Source: Patescibacteria group bacterium (lineage in GTDB: Bacteria; Patescibacteriota; Minisyncoccia; Minisyncoccales; Minisyncoccaceae). Taken from it: a stretch of 11,680 nt of DNA. Numbering within the stretch: the first letter of the stretch is position 1; each line of letters begins with the position of its first letter. The position numbers and the translations under genes were made by a program. Shown one piece after another: positions 1 through 11,538 of the stretch. Location of the stretch: NCBI GenBank assembly GCA_012798645.1, contig JAAZMU010000092.1, positions 1 to 11,680 of the forward strand, written 5' to 3'. The notes under the pieces are model-generated. The model did not search any database, had not been told where the DNA came from, and saw nothing but the letters and a program-made list of their open reading frames with translations.

Positions 1-246
1 AAGATTTTAAAGGTGTCTTATCTTTTATCTGCACCAGTTGTTTTAGGAGCATCTATTTATCTTTATTTGAAAAATCCAGATATTGTTATGCAAGGAGGTT
101 GGATTGCTTTGATTTTCTCTTTTATATTTGGTTTTATTTCCCTTAAGTCTTTATTAAAGTTATCTCAGAGAATAGATTTTTCTAAATTTACTTTGATATT
201 TGGTATAATATGTATTTTAGGAGCATTACTTGAATTTTTAATATGA
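1..246 (+). CDS. uppP: Undecaprenyl-diphosphatase (UppP/BacA), C-terminal part
   Basis: The frame is open from base 1, so this is the 3' end of a gene that starts before the window; the GTG at 13 is an internal Val codon, not a start. The roughly 81 visible residues form the last three membrane helices. The pattern SYLLSAPVVLGA, then a KSLLKL..RI.F element, then a final hydrophobic helix matches the end of E. coli UppP (SFLLAVPMMMGA ... KTFLQLIKRISF). UppP dephosphorylates undecaprenyl pyrophosphate at the membrane and recycles the lipid carrier for peptidoglycan synthesis. Its catalytic Glu/Arg motifs lie upstream of the window and cannot be checked. The TGA stop overlaps the next gene's ATG (ATGA, 243-246), so translation of the two is probably coupled. 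Identity rests on recalled similarity over a short stretch. Confidence 0.8.
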   Translation, partial: KILKVSYLLSAPVVLGASIYLYLKNPDIVMQGGWIALIFSFIFGFISLKSLLKLSQRIDFSKFTLIFGIICILGALLEFLI

Positions 247-3200
247 ATAGTTTAAATAAAGAACAAAAACAAGCAGTTTTTCATGATAAGGGGCCTCTTT
301 TAATAGTGGCAGGAGCAGGAACTGGAAAAACTACTGTACTCACAAAAAGGATTGCTCATCTTATGCAAAAAGGGGTGAGTGCTAATGAAATACTTGCTTT
401 GACTTTCACAGAAAAAGCTGCTGAAGAGATGCAAACTAGGGTAGAGAGTTTTTTAGATTTTGGCTATTATGATTTTTGGATTTCAACTTTCCATTCTTTT
501 TGTGATAGGATTTTGAAAATTCATGGATTAGAGATTGGAATACCCACAAATTATAAACTTTTGGATGAAACTGCTGCTTGGATTTTAATTAAGAGAAATT
601 TTAATGAATTTAACTTTTTAAAGGAATATAAGCCACTTGGAAATCCTACTAAGTTTATTCATGCATTGGTTCGTCATTTTGAGGATTGTAAAAATGAAGG
701 TATTTATCCCGAAGATTATTTGATTTATGCTGATTCTCTTAAAAAAGATTTAGTTATAAATGATGATTTGGAATATGTGCAAGTAAATGAAGTAGCTGAA
801 GCTTATCATACTTATCAAAAATTACTTTTAAATAATAATAGTTTGGATTTTGGTGATTTAATAAATTATGTACTTAAGCTTTTTAAAAAACATAAAAAAG
901 TTTTAGAAAAATATCAAAAGCAATTTCAATATGTTTTAATAGATGAATTTCAGGATACTAATTTTGTACAATATGAACTTGTTAAGAAAATAGCTGAGCC
1001 AAAAAATAATATTACAGTTGTGGGAGACGATGATCAATGTTTGGATGAAAATACTTTGATTGAAAAAATAGAGGGAAAAACAAAAATTAAAAATATTAAA
1101 AAAGGAGATAAGGTGCTAGCGGGTGTTGGCGAAGGACGTATTGGTGTAGCCAAAGTTTTAGATGTTTCTTTTAATAAAAAGGAGGTTGATTTATTAAACA
1201 TCAAGACCAAGAAAGGCAAAGAGATTCTTTTAACAGACAATCATAAAATGTTTTGTTTGGGTGAGAATTATGAAAAAACATATATTACAATGTTTTCAAA
1301 GGCAGAAAATGGTTTGCATACTTTAAGTTCTGACAAGGATGTTTCAAGTTCTAGTTTAAGAGAATTAATTAAACTTTCAAAAGAATATACTGATGAAAAG
1401 GTGGGGGTTAGATTTAAGGCAGGTTTAAATGATTATGCTATTATGGTGCCAGCTAGAGAGTTAAAAGTTAAAGATAAAATTCCAATTAAATGGGGGAATA
1501 AGATTATATATGATCAAATTATTGAGATTAGAAAGAATAAAAAAGTGGCTAAAATCTATGATCTAGAAATTGAAAAAGCACATAATTTTTTAGCAAATGA
1601 TATATTGGTTCATAATTCAATTTTTTCTTTTCAGGGAGCGTCATTTAATAATGTCTTGAGGTTTAAAAGCGACTATCCAAAATCAAAAGAAATTATACTT
1701 ACAGAGAATTATAGATCTACGCAAGAAATATTGGATTTAGCCTATAATTTTATTCAATTGAATAATCCAAACAGACTAGAATTTCAACTAAAGGAAGATT
1801 TAGAGAAAATAGATAAAAGATTAAAAAGCAATTCAAAGGAAAAAGGTTTGCTTGAGCTTTTGTCATTTGAAACAGCAGATGATGAAGTAATGGGGGTGAT
1901 TGATAAGATTTGGGAGCTTAAAGAAATAGATAATAGCGCAAAGTTTTCTGATTTTTGTGTATTAGTAAGAACAAATGAAACAGCAGATCAGTTTGTCAGA
2001 GGTTTTGAAAGAGCTAATATGCCCTGTCACTTTTTAGCTTCTAAAGGACTTTATTCGCATCCGATTATCATAGATATTATTGCATATTTTAGAGTGGTTT
2101 TAGATTTTTATGATTCGCCTAATCTTTACAGGGTTTTAAGGTCTCTACCTTTTGATTTTTCACCAGAAGAGGTTGCTAAGATAGGGTGGTTTGCTCAAAG
2201 AAAAACTATTCCTTTGTTTGAGGCTATTCAAAAACAAGAACTTTTAAACGAATTGTCTAAAGAGACTGGAGAAAGATTAAAGGAATTAATAGTGATTTTA
2301 AAAAATCATTTTGAATTATCAAAGGAGAAAAATATAAGTGAAGTTTTTGTACGAATGATAAATGACCTTCATTATGCGAAATGTTTAAAACAAGCAACAG
2401 AAGAAAATTTAAGAGTCTGGGAGATTATTTATCAATTTTTTCAGAAAACTAAAAGTTTTGAAAATAGCAATCATGATGGAAAGTTAATTGCTTTTATGGA
2501 TCAAATACAAATGGAATTAGATGCAGGAGAGGAAGGAAGTTTAGATAACCAGGTAGGGAGTGAGAGCGACTCGGTTAAGATTATGACAATTCATTCTGCA
2601 AAAGGGCTTGAATTTAAATATGTTTTTGTGGTCAGTCTTGTTCATAGAAGATTTCCAAGTGATAGAAAACATTCTCAAATAAAGATACCAGAGGAGCTTG
2701 TAAAGGAGATTATAGGGGAAGGTGATTTTCATTTAGAAGAAGAACGAAGACTTTTTTATGTTGCTTTAACAAGAGCTAAAAAGGGGTTATTTTTAACTTG
2801 GGCTTCTGATTATGGGGGGAAACAACTTAAAAAGCCTTCAAGGTTTTTAATAGAGGCAGGACTTATTAAGGAAGAAGATGCTTTAAAGCAAAAATTAAAA
2901 AGAGAAGGATTTTCTTTTCAGAAGAATTTTAATAATTTTAAAAAAGAATCAAATGAAATATTAGATATTAGTTATGGGGATTTTTTGCCTTTGCATTTTT
3001 CCTTTTCTCAATTGGCAGCTTTTCAAAAATGTCCTTTGCAGTATAAGTTTGAATATATTTTGAAAATTCCTACAAAAGGAAAACCTAATTTTTCATTCGG
3101 AAAAACAATACATAATACGCTTTATAGGTTTGTAAATTTAAATGCTCAAATATTTCAAAAAGAGCAAAAAAACTTGTTTGGTAAATTGGATATAGAAAGA

Positions 3201-3776
3201 GAAAAAGTTAATTTAGGGATAAATGATTTATTGAGTATTTATAATGAGGAATGGATTGATGCGTGGTTTGACAATGAAGAGCATAAAAAAGAGTATAAGA
3301 AAAAAGGAAAAGAAATTTTAAAGAGTTTTTATAAAGATTTTCTTAAAAAAGGCTTTTGTGTTTTGTATATGGAAAATGAACCTGCGCTTGAAAAAGATTT
3401 TAGTATTAATTTAAATGGGAATAAGTTTGTTGGGTCAATTGATAGGATTGATAAAATTAAAGATGAGATTGAGATAATAGATTATAAAACAGGGAATGTT
3501 AAAAAGAGTTTGTCTGCGGATGATAAATTTCAGTTAGAAATTTATAATTTAGTTGCGAATAAATTATTTAATATAACGCCAAGTAAATTAACCTTCTATT
3601 ATTTAGAAGAGGGGAAACACTCTTCGTTTGAACCAAAAGTAAAGTCGCTTAAAAAAACAGAAGAAAAAATATTAAATATAATAAAGAGGATAAAAAGAAG
3701 TAAATTTAAACCAACAGCTGGTTGGCAATGTCAATTTTGCGATTATAAAGATATTTGTCCTCATAGAAAATTTTGA
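243..3776 (+). CDS. UvrD/AddA-type superfamily 1 helicase with C-terminal Fe-S PD-(D/E)XK nuclease, interrupted by a mini-intein
   Basis: The precursor is 1177 aa; removing the intein (residues 266-458) leaves a 984-aa ATP-dependent DNA helicase-nuclease for unwinding and repair. Helicase motifs occur in order: Q motif (4-12), Walker A GAGTGKTT (24-31), motif Ia (LTFTEKAAEEM), Walker B DEFQD (234-238), motif III GDDDQ/SIFSFQG split by the intein, motif IV LTENYRST (486-493), motif V IHSAKGLEF (about 780), motif VI YVALTRAKK (about 832). The C-terminal nuclease shows GKTIH (H957), D1067 in GSIDR, D1080-Y-K1082 and QLEIY (Q1097). Four cysteines (C930, C1163, C1166, C1172) match the AddB/Cas4-type iron-sulfur staple. 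The architecture resembles AddA-like or single-chain RecB-family enzymes; the precise subfamily is inference. The start is the ATG overlapping the previous stop; there is no Shine-Dalgarno. gpsA follows after 3 nt. Confidence 0.95.
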   Translation: MNSLNKEQKQAVFHDKGPLLIVAGAGTGKTTVLTKRIAHLMQKGVSANEILALTFTEKAAEEMQTRVESFLDFGYYDFWISTFHSFCDRILKIHGLEIGIPTNYKLLDETAAWILIKRNFNEFNFLKEYKPLGNPTKFIHALVRHFEDCKNEGIYPEDYLIYADSLKKDLVINDDLEYVQVNEVAEAYHTYQKLLLNNNSLDFGDLINYVLKLFKKHKKVLEKYQKQFQYVLIDEFQDTNFVQYELVKKIAEPKNNITVVGDDDQCLDENTLIEKIEGKTKIKNIKKGDKVLAGVGEGRIGVAKVLDVSFNKKEVDLLNIKTKKGKEILLTDNHKMFCLGENYEKTYITMFSKAENGLHTLSSDKDVSSSSLRELIKLSKEYTDEKVGVRFKAGLNDYAIMVPARELKVKDKIPIKWGNKIIYDQIIEIRKNKKVAKIYDLEIEKAHNFLANDILVHNSIFSFQGASFNNVLRFKSDYPKSKEIILTENYRSTQEILDLAYNFIQLNNPNRLEFQLKEDLEKIDKRLKSNSKEKGLLELLSFETADDEVMGVIDKIWELKEIDNSAKFSDFCVLVRTNETADQFVRGFERANMPCHFLASKGLYSHPIIIDIIAYFRVVLDFYDSPNLYRVLRSLPFDFSPEEVAKIGWFAQRKTIPLFEAIQKQELLNELSKETGERLKELIVILKNHFELSKEKNISEVFVRMINDLHYAKCLKQATEENLRVWEIIYQFFQKTKSFENSNHDGKLIAFMDQIQMELDAGEEGSLDNQVGSESDSVKIMTIHSAKGLEFKYVFVVSLVHRRFPSDRKHSQIKIPEELVKEIIGEGDFHLEEERRLFYVALTRAKKGLFLTWASDYGGKQLKKPSRFLIEAGLIKEEDALKQKLKREGFSFQKNFNNFKKESNEILDISYGDFLPLHFSFSQLAAFQKCPLQYKFEYILKIPTKGKPNFSFGKTIHNTLYRFVNLNAQIFQKEQKNLFGKLDIEREKVNLGINDLLSIYNEEWIDAWFDNEEHKKEYKKKGKEILKSFYKDFLKKGFCVLYMENEPALEKDFSINLNGNKFVGSIDRIDKIKDEIEIIDYKTGNVKKSLSADDKFQLEIYNLVANKLFNITPSKLTFYYLEEGKHSSFEPKVKSLKKTEEKILNIIKRIKRSKFKPTAGWQCQFCDYKDICPHRKF
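1038..1616 (+). mobile_element. Mini-intein (193 aa) in helicase motif III
   Basis: An in-frame insertion splits the conserved helicase element VVGDDDQ from SIFSFQG. The inserted protein begins with Cys (C266) followed by LDENTLI and a K-K-G-D-K-V block, the usual intein block A. Block B is LTDNHKMF with the T-x-x-H pair (T331, H334). Block F is YDLEIEKAHNF (D440, H447). It ends ILVHN with the penultimate His and C-terminal Asn (N458), followed by Ser as the +1 extein nucleophile (S459). All residues needed for class 1 protein splicing are present, so it is probably active. No LAGLIDADG, HNH or GIY-YIG homing motif is visible in the roughly 80 residues between blocks B and F, so it is a mini-intein. 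Some codons inside it (GCC, GGC, CGT) are less AT-biased than the flanks, which is weak evidence of separate origin. Confidence 0.94.
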
Positions 3777-5310: not shown

Positions 5311-5491
5311 AATAGACAAAGAAAATTGTTTGGGTTGTGGTGGCTGTACTATTATATGTCCAGAAGGGATTGTTTTAGGAGAAGACGGCAAGGCTCAAAT
5401 AACTAATCAAGAAGAACTTGAGAGGGCAGGAGGGGAAAGTGTTTGTCCTTATGGGGCAATTGTGTTAGATGAAAAACTTTCTTCAGATTAA
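5297..5491 (+). CDS. Single-cluster [4Fe-4S] ferredoxin
   Basis: A 64-aa ferredoxin and small electron carrier. It has CxxCxxCxxxCP (C11, C14, C17, C21) and one distal Cys-Pro (C50-P51). The second CxxCxxC half of 8Fe ferredoxins is missing, so one [4Fe-4S] cluster held by C11, C14, C17 and C50 is expected, with C21 spare. This is the layout of Desulfovibrio or Thermotoga monocluster ferredoxins. The ATG lies inside the end of ppa (14-nt overlap), and its own end overlaps sufC by 23 nt, so it is embedded in the operon. Position directly before sufC suggests it supplies electrons for cluster assembly, or is a major client of it; that is inference. Confidence 0.92.
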   Translation: MKKYKIDKENCLGCGGCTIICPEGIVLGEDGKAQITNQEELERAGGESVCPYGAIVLDEKLSSD

Positions 5492-6182
5492 AAATTTAGA
5501 AGTAGAACTTGAAGGAAAAAAAGTCTTAAATGGGCTTGATTTTGAAATAGGAAAAGGTGAGATTGTGGCGCTTTTAGGTCCAAATGGGAGCGGAAAAAGC
5601 ACACTTGCAAAAGTAATTGCAGGAGACCTAAAATTCAAGATAAAAGCAGGAGATATTTTGTTTAATAAAAAGGATATTTCAAGATTACCTCCTGAAAAAA
5701 GAGTTAAAAAAGGGATAGCTTTAGCGTTCCAGGATCCACCTGAAATACAGGGGCTTAAAATGGATTTTTTTTTGAATAGTATGTCCCAGTTAGACGATTG
5801 CTTTAAGGAGGAGAAATTACTTAAAAGAGATGTTAATAAGGGATTTTCTGGTGGGGAAAAAAAGATTTCAGAATTAATGCAATTAACTTGCCTTGATTTA
5901 AAGCTTGTAATATTAGATGAAATTGATTCAGGTTTGGATATTAAAAGAGTGGAACAGGTGGCAAAGATTATCAATAGATATTTTATTCAAAAAGGAGTGG
6001 CTGTTTTAATAATAACACATCATGGTGATATTTTAGATTTATTAAAGCCTAATAAAACTAATATTATAATCAATGGAAGAATTGTAGGAAAGGATGAGGA
6101 TTATAAAAATGTCCTAAGAACAATCAAAAAATACGGATATGAAAAATGTAAAAAATGTACCAAATTTTTATCAGAGGAATAA
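5469..6182 (+). CDS. sufC: Fe-S cluster assembly ATPase SufC
   Basis: A 237-aa cytosolic ABC-type ATPase that pairs with SufB/SufD-type proteins and drives the conformational change needed for Fe-S cluster assembly. It shows Walker A GPNGSGKST (37-45), Q-loop FQDPPEI (Q88), the SufC-specific signature FSGGEKKISELMQL (126-139), Walker B LVILDEIDSGLDI (146-158, E151) and switch His in ITHHGD (H184). The region between Q-loop and signature is short, and the protein is slightly smaller than E. coli SufC (248 aa). Its extreme C terminus carries an uncommon CxxC (C227, C230), in the stretch overlapping the next gene by 44 nt. It overlaps the ferredoxin gene by 23 nt and lacks a clear Shine-Dalgarno. 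Confidence 0.95.
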   Translation: MKNFLQIKNLEVELEGKKVLNGLDFEIGKGEIVALLGPNGSGKSTLAKVIAGDLKFKIKAGDILFNKKDISRLPPEKRVKKGIALAFQDPPEIQGLKMDFFLNSMSQLDDCFKEEKLLKRDVNKGFSGGEKKISELMQLTCLDLKLVILDEIDSGLDIKRVEQVAKIINRYFIQKGVAVLIITHHGDILDLLKPNKTNIIINGRIVGKDEDYKNVLRTIKKYGYEKCKKCTKFLSEE

Positions 6183-6960
6183 TAAGGCAGAGATAAACTC
6201 TTTTAATGGTATTATAGTTTTACCAAGTGTTGTTGCATGGGAAAACTACGAATGGACGCATAATTATTTTGTTAAAAAGCCTGAGCAAGGATTTTTTTTA
6301 TGGGTTAAGGAGTCAATATTTAGTCAAATAAATACTCTAGTTGAAATTGATTCTAAAAATGTTTTTCAAAAAATGAATAATTTAATTGTTATTGAAAAAG
6401 GAATTAAAGCTAAATTATTTTCTACTTGTAAATCTTTGAAAGAGGTTAAGGGGAAACATTTTGCAAAGGCTAAAATTATAATTAAGAAAAATAGTTTTTT
6501 AGAATTTTTACAATATAGTTCTTGGCAAAAAGGAGATGAGTTTAAATCAGAGTATGAGTTTTTCTTAGAAGAAAAAGCATATCTTAAGGCAAACATTTCT
6601 AATAAGAATAAGGGAGCTAAAATAGTCACAAAAGAGAATGTTTATTTAGGAAAAAGAAAGGCAAGCGCTGATGTACGTATTAAAATGGTTGCTGAAAAAG
6701 GAGGAACTTTTTTTTCAGAAAGTTATATTCATGGAGAAAGCAATACAAAAGGACATTTGGAATGTTCAGGGTTAATTTCTGGTAAGGATTCTAAAATAAC
6801 TTCAATCCCTGGGTTAATGTGTAATTCAGATAAGGCTGAATTAACACACGAGGCTTTTGTGGGGAAAATTTCTGAAGAAAAGTTAATGTATTTAAGGATG
6901 AGAGGGCTTTCCTTGAGAAAAGCAGAAGAAATAATAATAAATAGTTTTTTAAGTTTATGA
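6139..6960 (+). CDS. Short SufB/SufD-family Fe-S scaffold protein
   Basis: A 273-aa protein, much shorter than classical SufB (about 490 aa) or SufD (about 420 aa) but near the size of the archaeal and minimal SufB-like proteins that work with SufC alone. The C terminus carries the family hallmark: GHLECSGLISGKDSKI (C209 lines up with the functional SufB Cys), then ELTHEAFVGKISEEKLMYLRMRGLS with H237 and E246/E247, as in SufB HEATTSKI.E.Q.FY...RG. Only three cysteines exist (C97, C209, C228). The middle is a beta-rich region as expected for the beta-helix core. The start ATG lies 44 nt inside sufC; the frame has a stop at 6115-6117 and no other ATG before residue 79, which fixes the start. 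It probably serves as both SufB and SufD, as a homodimer with SufC. The end overlaps mnmA by ATGA. Confidence 0.88.
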   Translation: MKNVKNVPNFYQRNNKAEINSFNGIIVLPSVVAWENYEWTHNYFVKKPEQGFFLWVKESIFSQINTLVEIDSKNVFQKMNNLIVIEKGIKAKLFSTCKSLKEVKGKHFAKAKIIIKKNSFLEFLQYSSWQKGDEFKSEYEFFLEEKAYLKANISNKNKGAKIVTKENVYLGKRKASADVRIKMVAEKGGTFFSESYIHGESNTKGHLECSGLISGKDSKITSIPGLMCNSDKAELTHEAFVGKISEEKLMYLRMRGLSLRKAEEIIINSFLSL

Positions 6961-7901
6961 AAAAGGTTTTTGTTGCTATATCTTCTGGTATAGACTCAAC
7001 AGTTGCACTTAAAATTTTAGCAAAGGAATATAATGTGACGGCTGTTTTTATGCGTTTATATGATATAGCAGATGAAAGAAGGGCAAAAGAAATTGCTGAT
7101 TTTTTTAATGTGCCTTTCTTGGTTTTTGATTTTAGAAAAGAATTTAAAGAGAAAATAATTAATAGATTTATTAAAGATTTAAAAGCAGGAAATACACCTA
7201 ACCCATGCGTTTTATGTAATCGAGATATTAAATTTAATTTATTTTATAAGGAGGCGAAAAAAAGAGGGGCAGATTTAATTGCAACAGGACATTATGTTAA
7301 GAAAAAAGGAGAATTTTTATATAAAGCAAAAGATGAAAAAAAAGATCAATCTTATTTTTTATGGGGGCTTACAAAAGAACAAGTTAAAAACTCATTATTT
7401 CCTTTGGGAGATTTTAGAAAAGAAGATATTAGAAAACAAGTAAAAATAAAAACAGGAAAAGAATCGCAAGAAGTTTGTTTTGATTTTAGTGAACTTTTAG
7501 AGAGTAAGAAGGGAAAAATACTAGATGAGAATAATAATGTCTTGGGGAAGCATCAAGGGGTTTGGTTTTATACGATAGGGCAGAGAAAAGGAATTGAATT
7601 ACCACAAGGTCCTTTTTTTGTTTTTAAAAAAGATGTTAAAAATAATATTTTGTATGTTACAAAGAACAAAGAATTACTTTTGAAAAAAGAAGTTAAGTTT
7701 AAAAAAACAAATTGGTTTGTTTTAAAGGAATTTCCGTTTCAGGCGAGTGCTAAAATTAGGTATAGGGCAAAAGAAGCATTATGCACAGTATATAAGAATA
7801 AAGCAATTTTTAAAGAGGGACAAAGCGCAGTTACAAGTGGACAATCAATTGTATTTTACAAGAATAAAAAACTTATAGGGGGAGGAATAATTTATGAATA
7901 A
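6957..7901 (+). CDS. mnmA: tRNA-specific 2-thiouridylase MnmA
   Basis: Thiolates U34 of tRNA-Lys, -Glu and -Gln at the wobble position, using ATP and a sulfur donor. At 314 aa it is shorter than E. coli MnmA (368). The PP-loop is SSGIDST (9-15), a variant of SGGxDS with Ser for the first Gly. Other hallmarks are TPNPCVLCNRDIKF (80-93), ATGHYV (109-114), DQSYFLWGL (130-138), LFPLGDFRK, EVCF (C174, equivalent to the E. coli catalytic C199) and FYTIGQRKGI. The first cysteine site reads C84-V-L-C87, that is CxxC and not the E. coli DxxC; CxxC plus the distal Cys is the arrangement associated with [4Fe-4S]-dependent tRNA thiolases. The start overlaps the SufB-like stop (ATGA, 6957-6960), linking it to Fe-S assembly. 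Confidence 0.95.
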   Translation: MKKVFVAISSGIDSTVALKILAKEYNVTAVFMRLYDIADERRAKEIADFFNVPFLVFDFRKEFKEKIINRFIKDLKAGNTPNPCVLCNRDIKFNLFYKEAKKRGADLIATGHYVKKKGEFLYKAKDEKKDQSYFLWGLTKEQVKNSLFPLGDFRKEDIRKQVKIKTGKESQEVCFDFSELLESKKGKILDENNNVLGKHQGVWFYTIGQRKGIELPQGPFFVFKKDVKNNILYVTKNKELLLKKEVKFKKTNWFVLKEFPFQASAKIRYRAKEALCTVYKNKAIFKEGQSAVTSGQSIVFYKNKKLIGGGIIYE

Positions 7902-8724
7902 GAAAACATTTTTTACTTTGTTAATTTTGTTTTTTTGCAATGTGATTGCCTTTAATTTTGTATTCAATAGAAACGATAATTTAAGAGTGATTTTCTTTGA
8001 TATTGGGCAAGGAGATTCTATTTTTATTGAAACAAGTCAAGGTCATCAAATTTTGGTAGATGGAGGACCTAATAATTCCGTGTTAAATAATTTAGAGAAA
8101 TTTATGAGTCCTTTTGATAAGAGCATAGATATGATTATATTAACACATGCAGACAAAGATCACTTAGCAGGGCTTGTAAGCGTTTTAAAGGTTTATAATG
8201 TTGATATTATTGTTTGGAGTGGTGCTTCCTCTGAATCTAATTTATTTTATGAATTTAAAGGATTGATGGATGGGAAGAAAGTGGTAACAGTTAAAGCATT
8301 TGATAAGATTTTTGCTGGGGATATTGAGCTTGAAATATTAAATCCAATAAAGGATGTTGAAACTGTTAAAGACCTTAATGATACATCAGTTGTTTTTAGA
8401 TTAGTGCATGGAAAGTCAAGGTTCTTATTAACAGGAGATTTATCTTCTAAGTTTGAAATGGATGTGATTGAGGTGTTTGATGATATTAAAAGTAATATTT
8501 TAAAAATAGGGCATCATGGTTCAAAATATTCTACTGCAGAAGAATTTGTTAAAGCAGTTTCTCCTAGTTGTGCTGTTATTTCAGTCGGGAAAAATAGTTA
8601 TGGGCATCCTGCAGAAAGAGTACTTGAGCTTTTAGAAGAAAGGAATATTAAGACTTTAAGAACAGATATTCATGGAGATGTTGTTTTTTACTCAGATAGG
8701 GAAAATATATTTTTGAAAAAGTAA
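7894..8724 (+). CDS. Stand-alone ComEC/Rec2-type metallo-beta-lactamase-fold hydrolase
   Basis: 276 aa. It begins with a charged MNKK and one hydrophobic segment (about 5-24), so it is probably anchored or exported with the catalytic domain outside. The rest is the C-terminal domain of ComEC proteins: FFDIGQGDSIFIE (34-46), LVDGGP (54-59), THADKDH (84-90) as the two-metal HxDxDH motif, LLTGD (178-182), GHHGSKYST (206-214) and GHPAERVLELL (237-247). The membrane-channel and OB domains of full ComEC are absent. ComEC hydrolase domains are thought to degrade one strand of incoming DNA, so DNA uptake or nucleotide scavenging is plausible but unproven. It overlaps mnmA by 8 nt and has a real Shine-Dalgarno (GGAGG, 7881-7885) within the mnmA end. 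Confidence 0.9.
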   Translation: MNKKTFFTLLILFFCNVIAFNFVFNRNDNLRVIFFDIGQGDSIFIETSQGHQILVDGGPNNSVLNNLEKFMSPFDKSIDMIILTHADKDHLAGLVSVLKVYNVDIIVWSGASSESNLFYEFKGLMDGKKVVTVKAFDKIFAGDIELEILNPIKDVETVKDLNDTSVVFRLVHGKSRFLLTGDLSSKFEMDVIEVFDDIKSNILKIGHHGSKYSTAEEFVKAVSPSCAVISVGKNSYGHPAERVLELLEERNIKTLRTDIHGDVVFYSDRENIFLKK

Positions 8725-8739
8725 ATTAAATGCTATACT
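8713..8739 (+). promoter_or_regulatory. Extended -10 promoter for the cupin gene
   Basis: TTGAAA (8713-8718) and TGC-TATACT (8731-8739) are separated by 15 nt. The short spacer is offset by the TGn extension. The predicted start is near 8746, leaving a leader of about 34 nt before the cupin ATG. The -35 lies inside the last codons of the preceding hydrolase gene. Confidence 0.65.
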
Positions 8740-8779
8740 AAAATTAAAGGTCTTTATAAGAAAATAAGAAATTAATAAT

Positions 8780-9175
8780 ATGAAAAAATATATAACAAAT
8801 ATAGAAGAGGAAACTTTAGAAAACGATAATTTTCGTAAAGTTCTTTTTACAGCTAAACATATGCAACTTGTTGTAATGTCTCTTAATCCTAATGAAGATA
8901 TTGGAGAAGAAGTTCATGAATCACATGATCAATTTATTAGAATAGAACAAGGAAATGCAAAAGCAATTTTAGATGGAAAAGAGTTTGAACTTGAAGATGA
9001 TTCAATTGTTGTAATTCCAGCAGGAGTTAGACACAACATTGTAAATACATCCTCTCAAAACAAAGTAAAACTTTATACCATATATGCCCCACCAGAACAT
9101 AAAGATAAGACAATTCATAAAATTAAGGAAGAGGGAATGGAACACGATGACTTTGATGGGATTACTTCATTTTAA
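8780..9175 (+). CDS. Small single-domain cupin protein
   Basis: 131 aa, one cupin beta-barrel. Motif 1 is GEEVHESHDQFIRIEQG (42-58), with H46, H49, Q51 and E56 as candidate metal ligands; motif 2 is VIPAGVRHNIVN (78-89) with H85. The N-terminal stretch (TNIEEETLENDNFRKVLFTAKHMQLVVMSL region) and the tail with YAPPEHKDKTIHK are typical of a widespread bacterial family of short cupins whose enzymatic role is not established. Cytoplasmic, no signal peptide. It stands alone: own promoter upstream, 55-nt gap from the hydrolase gene, and a new promoter just 2 nt after its stop. There is no Shine-Dalgarno. The metal-binding assignment is from family knowledge, and a specific substrate cannot be inferred. 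Confidence 0.9.
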   Translation: MKKYITNIEEETLENDNFRKVLFTAKHMQLVVMSLNPNEDIGEEVHESHDQFIRIEQGNAKAILDGKEFELEDDSIVVIPAGVRHNIVNTSSQNKVKLYTIYAPPEHKDKTIHKIKEEGMEHDDFDGITSF

Positions 9176-9177
9176 AC

Positions 9178-9206
9178 TTGATTATTGAGAACGATAATAG
9201 TATACT
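9178..9206 (+). promoter_or_regulatory. Sigma-70-type promoter of the non-coding RNA
   Basis: TTGATT (9178-9183) and TATACT (9201-9206) with the ideal 17-nt spacer. The predicted transcription start (about 9212-9214) coincides with the first base of the RNA's long closing stem. It begins 2 nt after the cupin stop codon. Confidence 0.75.
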
Positions 9207-9211
9207 AACAG

Positions 9212-9367
9212 TGCCTTGCTCTTTAAAAGTTTTCTGAACGCTTTTTCCCAGGGACTCTGCTTCTTTAATTGCTGTGGCAATTGAGGTAAGAAACCCACTT
9301 AAGTTTTTGCAGAATTTCTTTTAAGTTGAGCGAGGCAAAAAAAGCTTATCTTTGCGATAAGTTTTTT
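9212..9367 (+). ncRNA. ssrS: Structured small RNA, probable 6S RNA
   Basis: The 252-nt gap between cupin and the next gene has no plausible ORF but contains a complete RNA unit. The ends pair as GCCTTGCTC (9213-9221) with GAGCGAGGC (9328-9336), continuing TTAAAAG (9223-9229) with CTTTTAA (9318-9324) and TTCTG (9232-9236) with CAGAA (9310-9314). This leaves an internal bubble of 14 nt (9237-9250) opposite 13 nt (9297-9309). Above it GGG (9251-9253) pairs with CCC (9294-9296), and an apical hairpin has TTCTT/AAGAA and AATTGC/GCAATT (9261-9292, loop TGTG). Closing stem, single large bubble and apical stem are the 6S RNA plan, a promoter mimic that binds sigma-70 RNA polymerase. The core is about 124 nt, short for 6S (usually 160-200), so the name is a structural inference. 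Confidence 0.62.
9337..9367 (+). terminator. Intrinsic terminator of the small RNA
   Basis: CTTATC (9345-9350), loop TTTGC and GATAAG (9356-9361), followed by six T. Seven A precede the stem and can extend it by A-U pairing. It lies directly after the RNA's closing stem, so the precursor would be about 155 nt. Confidence 0.85.
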
Positions 9368-9369
9368 GT

Positions 9370-9422
9370 TTGCACTTAAGTCTTTAATTTGATATAATTT
9401 AAGTATGCAGAATCTAGGAGGT
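9370..9422 (+). promoter_or_regulatory. Strong promoter and Shine-Dalgarno of the small membrane protein gene
   Basis: TTGCAC (9370-9375), 17-nt spacer, TATAAT (9393-9398) preceded by TGA as an extended -10. The predicted start is near 9405. TAGGAGGT (9415-9422) is a near-complete Shine-Dalgarno 5 nt before the ATG at 9428. This is the best promoter and the best ribosome binding site in the window. Confidence 0.85.
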
Positions 9423-9427
9423 CAAAA

Positions 9428-9736
9428 ATGGAGTTTGCTAATTTGCCTTTATCATTAGACCCACTTTTAAGCATAGTTCTTTCATTCTTTTTGGCACTTT
9501 TACTTGCTTTTGCTTTGTATAAGTTTGCCTCAGGACAGCATGTTTGTTGTATTGCTTTCTATTCTATTGTGGCGTTGATTTTTATTCCAGCAATGATAGG
9601 AGCAGTGTTAGGAACTTTTGCATCGTTCCTTGCAACGATAGCTCTGATAGCTGGAGCAGTTTGGACTCTTTACGAGGTAAGACTCAAGGAAAGTAAAGAA
9701 GTGCTTACAAATGAAAAACCCTTAGAAGATATCTAA
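9428..9736 (+). CDS. Small integral membrane protein of unknown function
   Basis: 102 aa. I do not recognise a family. Three hydrophobic segments are visible at roughly residues 13-32, 40-58 and 62-82, with a cytosolic-looking charged tail (VRLKESKEVLTNEKPLEDI). Two adjacent cysteines (HVCC, about 39-40) lie at the start of the second segment, and the third is Ala/Gly-rich. It is a single-gene transcript: strong promoter and Shine-Dalgarno upstream, and a terminator hairpin that overlaps its last codons. High predicted expression for an unknown membrane protein is notable. No enzyme motif is seen, so a role in envelope structure or small-molecule passage is only a guess. Confidence 0.8.
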   Translation: MEFANLPLSLDPLLSIVLSFFLALLLAFALYKFASGQHVCCIAFYSIVALIFIPAMIGAVLGTFASFLATIALIAGAVWTLYEVRLKESKEVLTNEKPLEDI

Positions 9737-9748
9737 GGGCTTATTTTT
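9714..9748. terminator. Bidirectional intrinsic terminator
   Basis: A perfect 8-bp stem CCCTTAGA (9719-9726) / TCTAAGGG (9732-9739) with a 5-nt loop. On the + strand it is followed by CTTATTTTT; on the - strand the five A at 9714-9718 become a T run. It lies between two convergent genes and overlaps the last codons of the + strand gene. Confidence 0.85.
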
Positions 9749-9962
9749 CTTTATAAAGTGCTTTTATACATTTAGTGCACGCTAAAATTTTCTTACCCGC
9801 GTATTCCTTGTAAGCTTTTTTGTCCACATCGCTTGGAATAAGAACCCACTGTAAATTCGGGTACTTTCTCTTTTTAGGAGTGGGATTATATTTTGAAATC
9901 AGTTTTTTATATTGTCTTTCCATAGCTGATTTCTTTTCACATATTTTACATACTTTTGCCAT
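9741..9962 (-). CDS. rpmB: 50S ribosomal protein bL28, zinc-ribbon form
   Basis: 73 aa on the minus strand. It starts MAKVCKICEKKSA, has a central basic stretch KKRKYPNLQWV, and ends with GKKILACTKCIKAL. This is the bL28 pattern (MAKVC..TGK, then R..PNLQ, then a C-terminal strand), in the cysteine-containing C+ form seen for example in actinobacteria: C5xxC8 and C62xxC65 can bind one zinc. An insert of a few residues (SDVDKKAYKEYA) precedes the last strand. It is part of the large ribosomal subunit. It is transcribed away from the M50 gene and converges on the membrane protein gene. The predicted transcription start falls 1-2 nt before the ATG, and there is no Shine-Dalgarno. It is separated from rpmG, a frequent partner of rpmB. 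Confidence 0.85.
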   Translation of the reverse strand: MAKVCKICEKKSAMERQYKKLISKYNPTPKKRKYPNLQWVLIPSDVDKKAYKEYAGKKILACTKCIKALYKEK

Positions 9963-9970
9963 ATGTTATA

Positions 9971-9998
9971 TATATAGCAAAAAATAGAATAATTGCAA
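9971..9998 (-). promoter_or_regulatory. rpmB promoter, leaderless
   Basis: Reading the minus strand: TTGCAA (9998-9993), 16-nt spacer ending TGC, then TATATA (9976-9971) as an extended -10. The expected start (about 9964) is only 1-2 nt ahead of the rpmB ATG (9962), so the mRNA is predicted to lack a leader. The TA repeat allows the -10 to shift by 2 nt. Confidence 0.65.
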
Positions 9999-10021
9999 GT
10001 CTTTTTTTAATATGCTAGTAT
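9993..10021 (+). promoter_or_regulatory. Promoter of the M50 protease gene, sharing the -35 box
   Basis: The same TTGCAA (9993-9998, self-complementary) is followed by a 17-nt spacer ending TGC and TAGTAT (10016-10021), an imperfect -10 with a TGn extension. The expected start (about 10028) is at the ATG (10029), so a leaderless message is predicted. The -10 matches consensus in only 4 of 6 bases. Confidence 0.5.
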
Positions 10022-10028
10022 TTTACAT

Positions 10029-10643
10029 ATGAGCGAAGTTATCATAGTTAGTTTTATTGTTTTAATATTTTCAATCGTGATTCATGAAGTGTCTCACGGA
10101 AGTATGGCTTATCATTTGGGAGATGATACTGCCAAAAGGCAAGGAAGGTTAAGTTTGAATCCCTTGAAGCACATTGATCTTATGGGCACAATACTTTTGC
10201 CTTTGTTCTTAGTTATGTTGAATTCTCCTGCTGTAATTGGATGGGCAAAACCAGTTCCAGTTAATTTTAATAATTTACGAGATAGAAAATGGGGCGAATT
10301 AAAAGTGGCTATAGCTGGACCACTTTCTAATTTGTGCGTAGCGTTAGTTTGTGCCTTACTGATTAGATTCTTTACCTTGGGAGAAGGGATGACGTTGATT
10401 TTATCTGTAGCAGTGATTTATAATATTTTACTTGCTTTGTTCAATTTAATTCCTGTGCCACCTTTAGATGGTTCACATATATTGTTTACATTTCTGAGAA
10501 ATTATGAAGTAAAAGCTTTTTTGACTAGGTTTGGATTTTTTATTTTAATTTTTGCTTTATTCTTTACTCCCTTTTTAAAAATCTTACTTTCTGCCACGGT
10601 TTTTCTAGGTAATTTTTTAACAGCAGGAAAGCTATTGATATAA
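10029..10643 (+). CDS. Site-2 protease-like membrane zinc metalloprotease (peptidase M50)
   Basis: 204 aa, nearly all membrane helices. The zinc motif HEVSH is at 19-23 in the first helix (HExxH), and the third ligand motif NLIPVPPLDGS (139-149) supplies D147. AIAGPLSNL (94-102) and the NPLKHIDLMGT element (44-54) are typical of the compact M50 group without a PDZ domain. Members cut substrates within the membrane; regulated proteolysis or signal-peptide clearance are possible roles, but none is indicated by the neighbours. No Shine-Dalgarno; divergent from rpmB. The next gene starts 34 nt downstream with no terminator between, so the two may share a transcript. Confidence 0.93.
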   Translation: MSEVIIVSFIVLIFSIVIHEVSHGSMAYHLGDDTAKRQGRLSLNPLKHIDLMGTILLPLFLVMLNSPAVIGWAKPVPVNFNNLRDRKWGELKVAIAGPLSNLCVALVCALLIRFFTLGEGMTLILSVAVIYNILLALFNLIPVPPLDGSHILFTFLRNYEVKAFLTRFGFFILIFALFFTPFLKILLSATVFLGNFLTAGKLLI

Positions 10644-10677
10644 ATTAGTATTAATAAATAATAATAATTATAAATTT

Positions 10678-11538
10678 ATGAAGAAATTATTACCCACCAT
10701 TATTATAATATTGCTTCTTGTTTTTGTAGGTCTTTTCTTGCAAAATAAAGATTCTCCCTCCCTCACCCTTATTTTCCCTAATGGAGGAGAAGTTTTAGAA
10801 GAAGGCTCAACTTATACAATTAAATGGGATAGTAAAAATATTCCTGCTGATAGCAAAGTATCTATGAGTCTTCGCCGAGTAATATCAGCAACTGAGGAGC
10901 AAGAATTCCCCCTTGATCTTTTTGATTTATACAATACTGGAAGTGTAGAGTGGACAGTTTCTAACATGTATCCTGCAGGAGATTATTTACTAAGCATTGT
11001 TAAGTATTCTTCTAGCGCTCCTATTGCTGATGAAAGTGATGCTCCTTTTCAAATTGTAAAGTCTTCTCAAGAAATGAATTGGCAAACTTACTATAATGAA
11101 GATTTTGGATATAGTCTAAGTTATCCTGATAATTTAATTTTAAGAGAATTTCCAGGAACAAAGACTGGAGCCGGTTTTCGTTTAAAAGAGGAAATGTCTG
11201 GCGAATGTATTACTGTGTCTGTAAGAGAAGCAGTAAAAGACAAAGAGGATATCCCCTTTGATCAATATGTAAGAGAAGCAGCTATAGAGGAAATTCAAGA
11301 TTATAAGAGGTTAAATTCTATTGAGAAAGTAACTACAGACAGCGGACTTGATGGTTATAAAACGACTTGGGGTTATACTTTTTTGGGCGGAGAAGAAGAA
11401 ATTTCTTTGCCAATTACATATTTTGAAGGTCCTGGTAATGTCCAAGGAATAAATTACAAGACTATTCAGCTAAATTTAAATGATTCAAGCTTTGAGGAAG
11501 TTTACGAACAAATGCTACGTACTTTTAGTAAAGAGTAA
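10678..11538 (+). CDS. Exported two-domain protein: Ig-like (Kre9/KNH-type) plus PsbP-like domain
   Basis: 286 aa. It has an N-terminal signal anchor (MKK then hydrophobic to about residue 21) with no lipobox or clear cleavage site, so it is probably tethered outside the membrane. Residues about 28-125 read LTLIFPNGGEVLEEGSTYTIKW ... PAGDYLLSIV, the pattern of the extracellular Ser/Thr-rich 'PNGGE' beta-sandwich domain. Residues about 135-286 start NWQTYYNEDFGYSLSYPDN, the entry motif of PsbP-like domains found in many secreted bacterial proteins, and end in a short helix (EEVYEQMLRTFSKE). Function is unknown; cell-surface binding is an inference from the architecture. No Shine-Dalgarno. It lies between the M50 gene and rplU, with only a weak TTGATA (10635-10640) in the upstream gap. 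Confidence 0.85.
   Translation: MKKLLPTIIIILLLVFVGLFLQNKDSPSLTLIFPNGGEVLEEGSTYTIKWDSKNIPADSKVSMSLRRVISATEEQEFPLDLFDLYNTGSVEWTVSNMYPAGDYLLSIVKYSSSAPIADESDAPFQIVKSSQEMNWQTYYNEDFGYSLSYPDNLILREFPGTKTGAGFRLKEEMSGECITVSVREAVKDKEDIPFDQYVREAAIEEIQDYKRLNSIEKVTTDSGLDGYKTTWGYTFLGGEEEISLPITYFEGPGNVQGINYKTIQLNLNDSSFEEVYEQMLRTFSKE

Follow-up and report, generated by a model that had tools for sequence, protein, structure and literature searches.

A predicted class-1 mini-intein in the UvrD-type helicase of a Patescibacteria bacterium and its long relatives with a probable internal GIY-YIG endonuclease domain

The helicase gene and its in-frame insert

The window, here the whole stretch of 11,680 nucleotides analysed (contig JAAZMU010000092.1, assembly GCA_012798645.1), belongs to a Patescibacteria group genome (G000) of 496,825 bases in 121 contigs, which is 97.3% complete. 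A helicase-encoding ORF (243-3776, + strand) specifies a protein of 1177 amino acids, in which Pfam recognizes UvrD-helicase (e-value: 2.5e-71), UvrD_C (2.9e-52) and, at the C-terminal end, PDDEXK_1 (9.2e-33) domains. It is interrupted by an insert of 193 amino acids, which extends from Cys1 (residue 266; TGT at nt 1038) to a last Asn (residue 458; nt 1616), has a G+C content (28.3%) similar to that of the flanking sequence and lies at the splice site GDDDQ/SIFSFQG, which is helicase motif III. The features of the locus are as follows:

243..3776, + strand: precursor of a UvrD/PcrA-type helicase with a PD-(D/E)XK nuclease, 1177 aa (984 aa if spliced) (ORF, Pfam/NCBIfam)
243..1037, + strand: N-extein, residues 1-265, whose C-terminal end ...VVGDDDQ is motif III (translation, Pfam)
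1038..1616, + strand: predicted class-1 mini-intein, 193 aa, Cys1-Asn193 (translation, Pfam, intein_Nterm/intein_Cterm, PDB match)
1233..1244, + strand: intein block B, T66-D-N-H69 (translation)
1260..1427, + strand: central-region remnant, intein residues ~75-130, lacking the GIY-YIG part and holding pieces of the second half only (pairwise alignment to the 369-aa sister intein; dN/dS)
1557..1589, + strand: intein block F, YDLEIEKAHNF (translation, intein_Cterm model)
1602..1616, + strand: intein block G, ILVHN, with penultimate His and terminal Asn (translation, intein_Cterm model)
1617..3773, + strand: C-extein, with +1 Ser, SIFSFQG..., UvrD_C and PDDEXK_1 (translation, Pfam)

The initial annotation had read the insert as an intein and had proposed that residues 266-458 be compared with intein models, and all three such models match: PF14890 (Intein_splicing; Bitscore: 60.1, cut-off 35.8; e-value: 2.8e-16), TIGR01445 (intein_Nterm; 6e-7) and TIGR01443 (intein_Cterm; 7e-7), the latter two likewise exceeding their curated cut-offs. 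The top PDB sequence match of the insert is the intein structure 6rpq. TDNH (block B), YDLE...AHNF, the terminal His-Asn and the +1 Ser are all readable in the translation, and the set of class-1 residues (Cys1, TDNH, VHN and Ser459) is complete. The insert belongs to the cis-splicing mini-inteins of class 1, and its splicing is predicted from these features. According to the standard mechanism, Cys1 would attack the bond at Gln265, the N-extein would be transferred to the +1 Ser459 and cyclization of intein Asn193 would free the helicase-nuclease. Computed from the translation, excision leaves a protein of 984 amino acids, the length that had originally been given. The representative of a 90% protein cluster with 27 member sequences (P0122) carries the same 193-aa intein and differs from the window protein at 6/1177 positions, one of which is within the intein; the short form is therefore present in a second, non-identical sequence. 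No second UvrD-type helicase was found in the window genome in a PF00580 search, and as the only one found is interrupted by the intein, the intein would have to go on splicing.

Several further features were observed in this genome. A second intein-like insert of 187 amino acids occurs on contig C52 (L032:1453-2013, - strand) between TRVGFQ and CPFTN and ends in Gly-Asn; its PF14890 match is below the cut-off and its host protein was read as a ribonucleotide reductase. LAGLIDADG_3 had no match in the genome. Within the window, a compact run (5469-7901) encodes an ABC-type ATPase (SufC-like by context), an overlapping SufBD-core protein and an MnmA-like tRNA-modifying protein, with a gene for a metallo-beta-lactamase-fold protein (7894-8724) overlapping the end of the MnmA-like gene. 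From ~8500 to 11500 the GC skew drops from ~0.36 to 0.04-0.15 while the main genes remain on the + strand.

Intein states among related genomes

A helicase match is present in at least 137 of 196 related genomes. Among the matches listed, the gene is split at the splice site in G001, G003, G016, G030, G070, G083, G101, G105, G116, G151 and G162, in addition to the window's own. Complete long inteins of 362-374 amino acids were found in nine of these eleven loci when fetched (that of G162 with a masked stretch), while those of G003 and G016 are interrupted by contig ends, with pieces totalling 233 and 321 amino acids, respectively, both longer than the short form. A GIY-YIG motif is visible in the G016 piece; in G003 its position falls in the gap. 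The two-piece appearance of these genes had raised the possibility of a split intein, which was rejected, as the pieces end at contig ends and the appearance is therefore explained by assembly breaks.

All three states occur in the genus of the window genome (six genomes): G000 has the short form, G001 an intein of 369 amino acids and G003 one exceeding the short form, while G002, G004 and G005 are empty. Intein-free orthologues, for which the initial annotation had suggested looking, thus exist in the same genus as well as elsewhere, with their flanks joined exactly. Among the 21 genomes of the family, G000 included, 16 are empty at the junction and four carry an intein, with G010 not scored. 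Class-1 inteins need Ser, Thr or Cys at the +1 position. This residue is Asn, Gly and Gly in the empty congeners G002 (L134), G005 (L135) and G004 (L136), respectively, which under the usual rule would prevent a class-1 intein from splicing there; it is Ser in the remaining 13 empty family members. An empty orthologue in G006 (C16:25001-26731) contains two TGA and two TAA codons within its C-terminal match and is possibly a pseudogene.

In a host tree of 26 rows, which omits G009, G015, G017, G019 and G020 (all five empty with +1 Ser), G000 groups with its sister G001 (support 100/96), and their N-exteins share 226/265 residues. This pairing is not resolved by a GpsA tree of seven rows, although G001 has the GpsA most identical to that of G000 (80%, as compared to 61-74% in the others). 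The intein states require six changes on the host tree, at least four of which are forced by strong branches. As shuffled labels match the observed six changes in 68-82 of 500 draws, there is no clear clustering of intein presence. The helicase branch of G000 is long (0.14, as compared to 0.021 for G001). A causal role of the deletion in this fast evolution was considered and rejected, since GpsA also shows a long G000 branch (0.25 and 0.056, respectively) and the effect is not gene-specific.

Shortening of the window intein

In a pairwise alignment with the G001 intein, both splicing blocks are retained in the window copy, which is 176 residues shorter, and most of the intervening region is gone, with second-half remnants recognizable as ITMFS, HTL and LRELIKL...VRFKAGL. 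Between G000 and G001, dN/dS is 0.09 for the N-extein, 0.18 for the intein C-block and 0.41 for the remnant, which is the least constrained of the parts measured; for the intein N-block dN is 0.17 and dS is saturated. By these comparisons, the window insert is a shortened copy of an intein of ~360-375 residues at the same site, and we infer that the direction of change was deletion. As G001 still has the 369-aa form, the shortening is most simply dated after the split of G000 and G001. No endonuclease model was among the Pfam matches of the window insert, and it lacks the GIY-YIG part seen in the long relatives. The initial statement that there is no homing nuclease accordingly holds for the window copy but not for its close relatives, which carry a probable endonuclease.

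Two other readings of the insert bear on these results. It might be a helicase domain, dead or normal, that is never spliced out, a reading for which there is room in that splicing is predicted from sequence alone and the window copy falls so far below the length of its sister's. However, the splicing residues are retained, the C-block is constrained, the frame is kept in P0122, the junction lines up exactly in empty orthologues and no other UvrD-type helicase was found with PF00580, which makes this explanation highly improbable. The intein could alternatively serve as a post-translational switch, with conditional splicing, as is known for other inteins, freeing helicase activity in response to stress of some kind. 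Because the insert disrupts motif III, the precursor should lack activity, and the splicing residues are intact and constrained, as a switch would have it. Against this, the intein is absent from half of the genus genomes and from most of the family, no regulatory feature was seen and the requirement for splicing as such explains the constraint. We regard the regulatory switch as unsupported and very unlikely, and the initial alternatives of an old, fixed intein or one kept for regulation are largely replaced, given the long form in the sister genome and the variable state within the genus. Loss of the endonuclease from a formerly mobile intein, together with the need to splice, would be a sufficient account without regulation.

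Central domain of the long inteins

Models from Pfam, NCBIfam and PHROGs all failed to place the central domain of the long inteins, and a Pfam scan of eight of them with an e-value limit of 10 returned neither a GIY-YIG match nor a LAGLIDADG family. A profile of the central region nevertheless aligned with a GIY-YIG profile, built from 17 of 30 fetched loci chosen by motif pattern, with an hhalign score of 35.4, as compared to at most 18.0 for 100 shuffles and 19.9 for 150 ORFs. Comparison of an AlphaFold model further indicates a GIY-YIG-like fold for the first half of the domain. Across 137 aligned central regions, Tyr91 (137/137), Gly103 (137/137), Arg111 (135/137) and Glu137 (137/137) are conserved. 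The aligned GIY and YIG motifs read YVYLM and [WY]RxG and do not retain the literal letters; the YLM and [WY]R.G letters were partly selected for, as the pattern used to cut out the regions includes them, while Arg111 and Glu137 lie outside this pattern. A central Arg and a C-terminal Glu are features of the GIY-YIG superfamily according to passages of one source (PMC1564403). Profile and fold comparison together support assignment of the first half to the GIY-YIG nuclease superfamily.

The second half is predicted to adopt a beta-alpha-beta-beta-alpha-beta arrangement, ferredoxin- or half-LAGLIDADG-like. This, the LAGLIDADG rows returned by Foldseek (e-values of 0.13 and above) and the absence of a direct Pfam match would be compatible with a central domain of some other fold, such as a degenerate LAGLIDADG, or with a non-catalytic one. 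Such an interpretation appears unlikely for the first half, where the profile match beats both kinds of control and is joined by the fold rows and the Tyr/Arg/Glu conservation; the second half scored 13.8 against LAGLIDADG, within the shuffled range, in what was a poor test using one LAGLIDADG sequence.

The region holding the whole intein is matched by 764 protein clusters; among the best 120 of these, three proteins are off the intein pattern, and one that fits (431 aa) has a misplaced start. A search for free-standing relatives of the central domain gave one match, a UvrD fragment, and absence from the VIA lists was not counted as exclusion of a family. The BFVD model of a phage adenine methyltransferase (A0A8S5TZY8; 782 aa) matches the central-domain model (e-value: 2.6e-5), which possibly places the same type of intein, or the domain, in a different host protein.

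Phage members and mobility

Searches with the central domain identified 36 phage records, in three of which the match covers at least 80% of the domain. No relative was found in viral contigs with a single-sequence query, while an alignment query gave five weak matches to the C-terminal end. The helicase of coliphage JohannJBalmer has an annotated intein of 346 amino acids, not counting the +1 Cys, at GDEFQ/CIYQF, and CampHawk, found via the whole PcrA-type protein, has one of 275 amino acids at GDDDQ/SMYSF (KF669649.1 CampHawk_172; its end is Asn566 in the record and N576 in passages of the announcement, PMC3868849). Both inteins match the bacterial central profile (hhalign probabilities of 98.9 and 96.5, respectively) but gave no direct match to the GIY-YIG profile (5.6 and 2.0).

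Records similar to the JohannJBalmer gene number 119, of which 36 cover at least 80%. Five among the matches listed are 97.7-98.5% identical and span 1737 bases, which corresponds to an intein-less allele, as the full length of 2775 minus the 1038 of the intein is 1737. Nineteen records, including SPO1, contain a CampHawk-like gene: 13 cover at least 80% and six cover 72% in two pieces with 85-92% identity. Residue-by-residue comparison shows 346 and 275 amino acids to be missing from two empty phage alleles. Presence and absence in otherwise similar phage genes is the pattern expected for a mobile intein, as judged from these records.

Relation to known systems and proposed evolution

UvrD inteins in themselves are already known. 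Those of SPO1/CampHawk and JohannJBalmer share the host family, the motif III junction and the central region with the bacterial long forms; they are phage-borne, whereas the window copy has lost the central domain. In the parts of the CampHawk announcement seen (PMC3868849), an HNH homing nuclease is mentioned in the genome and the intein central domain is not assigned. LAGLIDADG (dodecapeptide) inteins likewise have an endonuclease inserted between the blocks of a Hint splicing fold, but the long relatives have a central domain that matches GIY-YIG and no LAGLIDADG model; PF14528 occurs in 101 of the 193 genomes of the relatives search and is absent from the window genome. Mini-inteins without an endonuclease are known from passages of PMC1635734. 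The AceL NrdHF intein is also associated with a GIY-YIG endonuclease (passages of PMC7891396), encoded there by a gene of its own that separates the two halves of a split class-3 intein, in contrast to the internal domain of a continuous class-1 intein in the long relatives. UPF0213/Slx1-type GIY-YIG nucleases have the same motif order (Y-V-Y-L ... [WY]-R-x-G ... R ... E) and a similar predicted fold, but the long relatives lack the first Gly of GIY, have W-R-x-G or Y-R-x-G as YIG and carry the domain inside an intein. Excerpts of one review (PMC5874633) place helicase inteins at the P-loop, whereas the inteins described here sit at motif III. Keyword passages of PMC1564403, PMC7765530, PMC8772380, PMC7891396, PMC5874633, PMC3943268, PMC5871332, PMC1635734, PMC5050341, PMC10448857, PMC3868849 and PMC2814812 contain no description of a GIY-YIG domain within a continuous intein, though an earlier description is possible.

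We consider it probable, with good confidence, that the window carries the endonuclease-less descendant of a GIY-YIG-bearing long intein at the same codon. The ancestor would have been an intein of ~360-375 amino acids with a central GIY-YIG-type homing endonuclease and a second, possibly DNA-binding, alpha/beta domain, and this parent form may have used the endonuclease to invade empty uvrD alleles. The window lineage would have lost the endonuclease by deletion after its split from the sister species and retained the splicing part, which the sole UvrD-type helicase found in the genome would need.

The more valuable result concerns the relatives, which form a widespread family of inteins that probably contain an internal GIY-YIG endonuclease, its activity being predicted. 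It appears likely, at slightly less confidence, that GIY-YIG is a further endonuclease class inside continuous inteins, represented by a large family in the UvrD/PcrA helicases of CPR bacteria, Omnitrophota, Margulisbacteria and cultured phages including SPO1, which would home into motif III, with the window lineage as an endonuclease-lost stage. If so, the list of endonuclease classes in inteins grows, and the phage cases open the GIY-YIG reading to testing in laboratory strains. The long, short and empty states within one genus would furthermore constitute a natural series for the loss of mobility with retention in an important gene.
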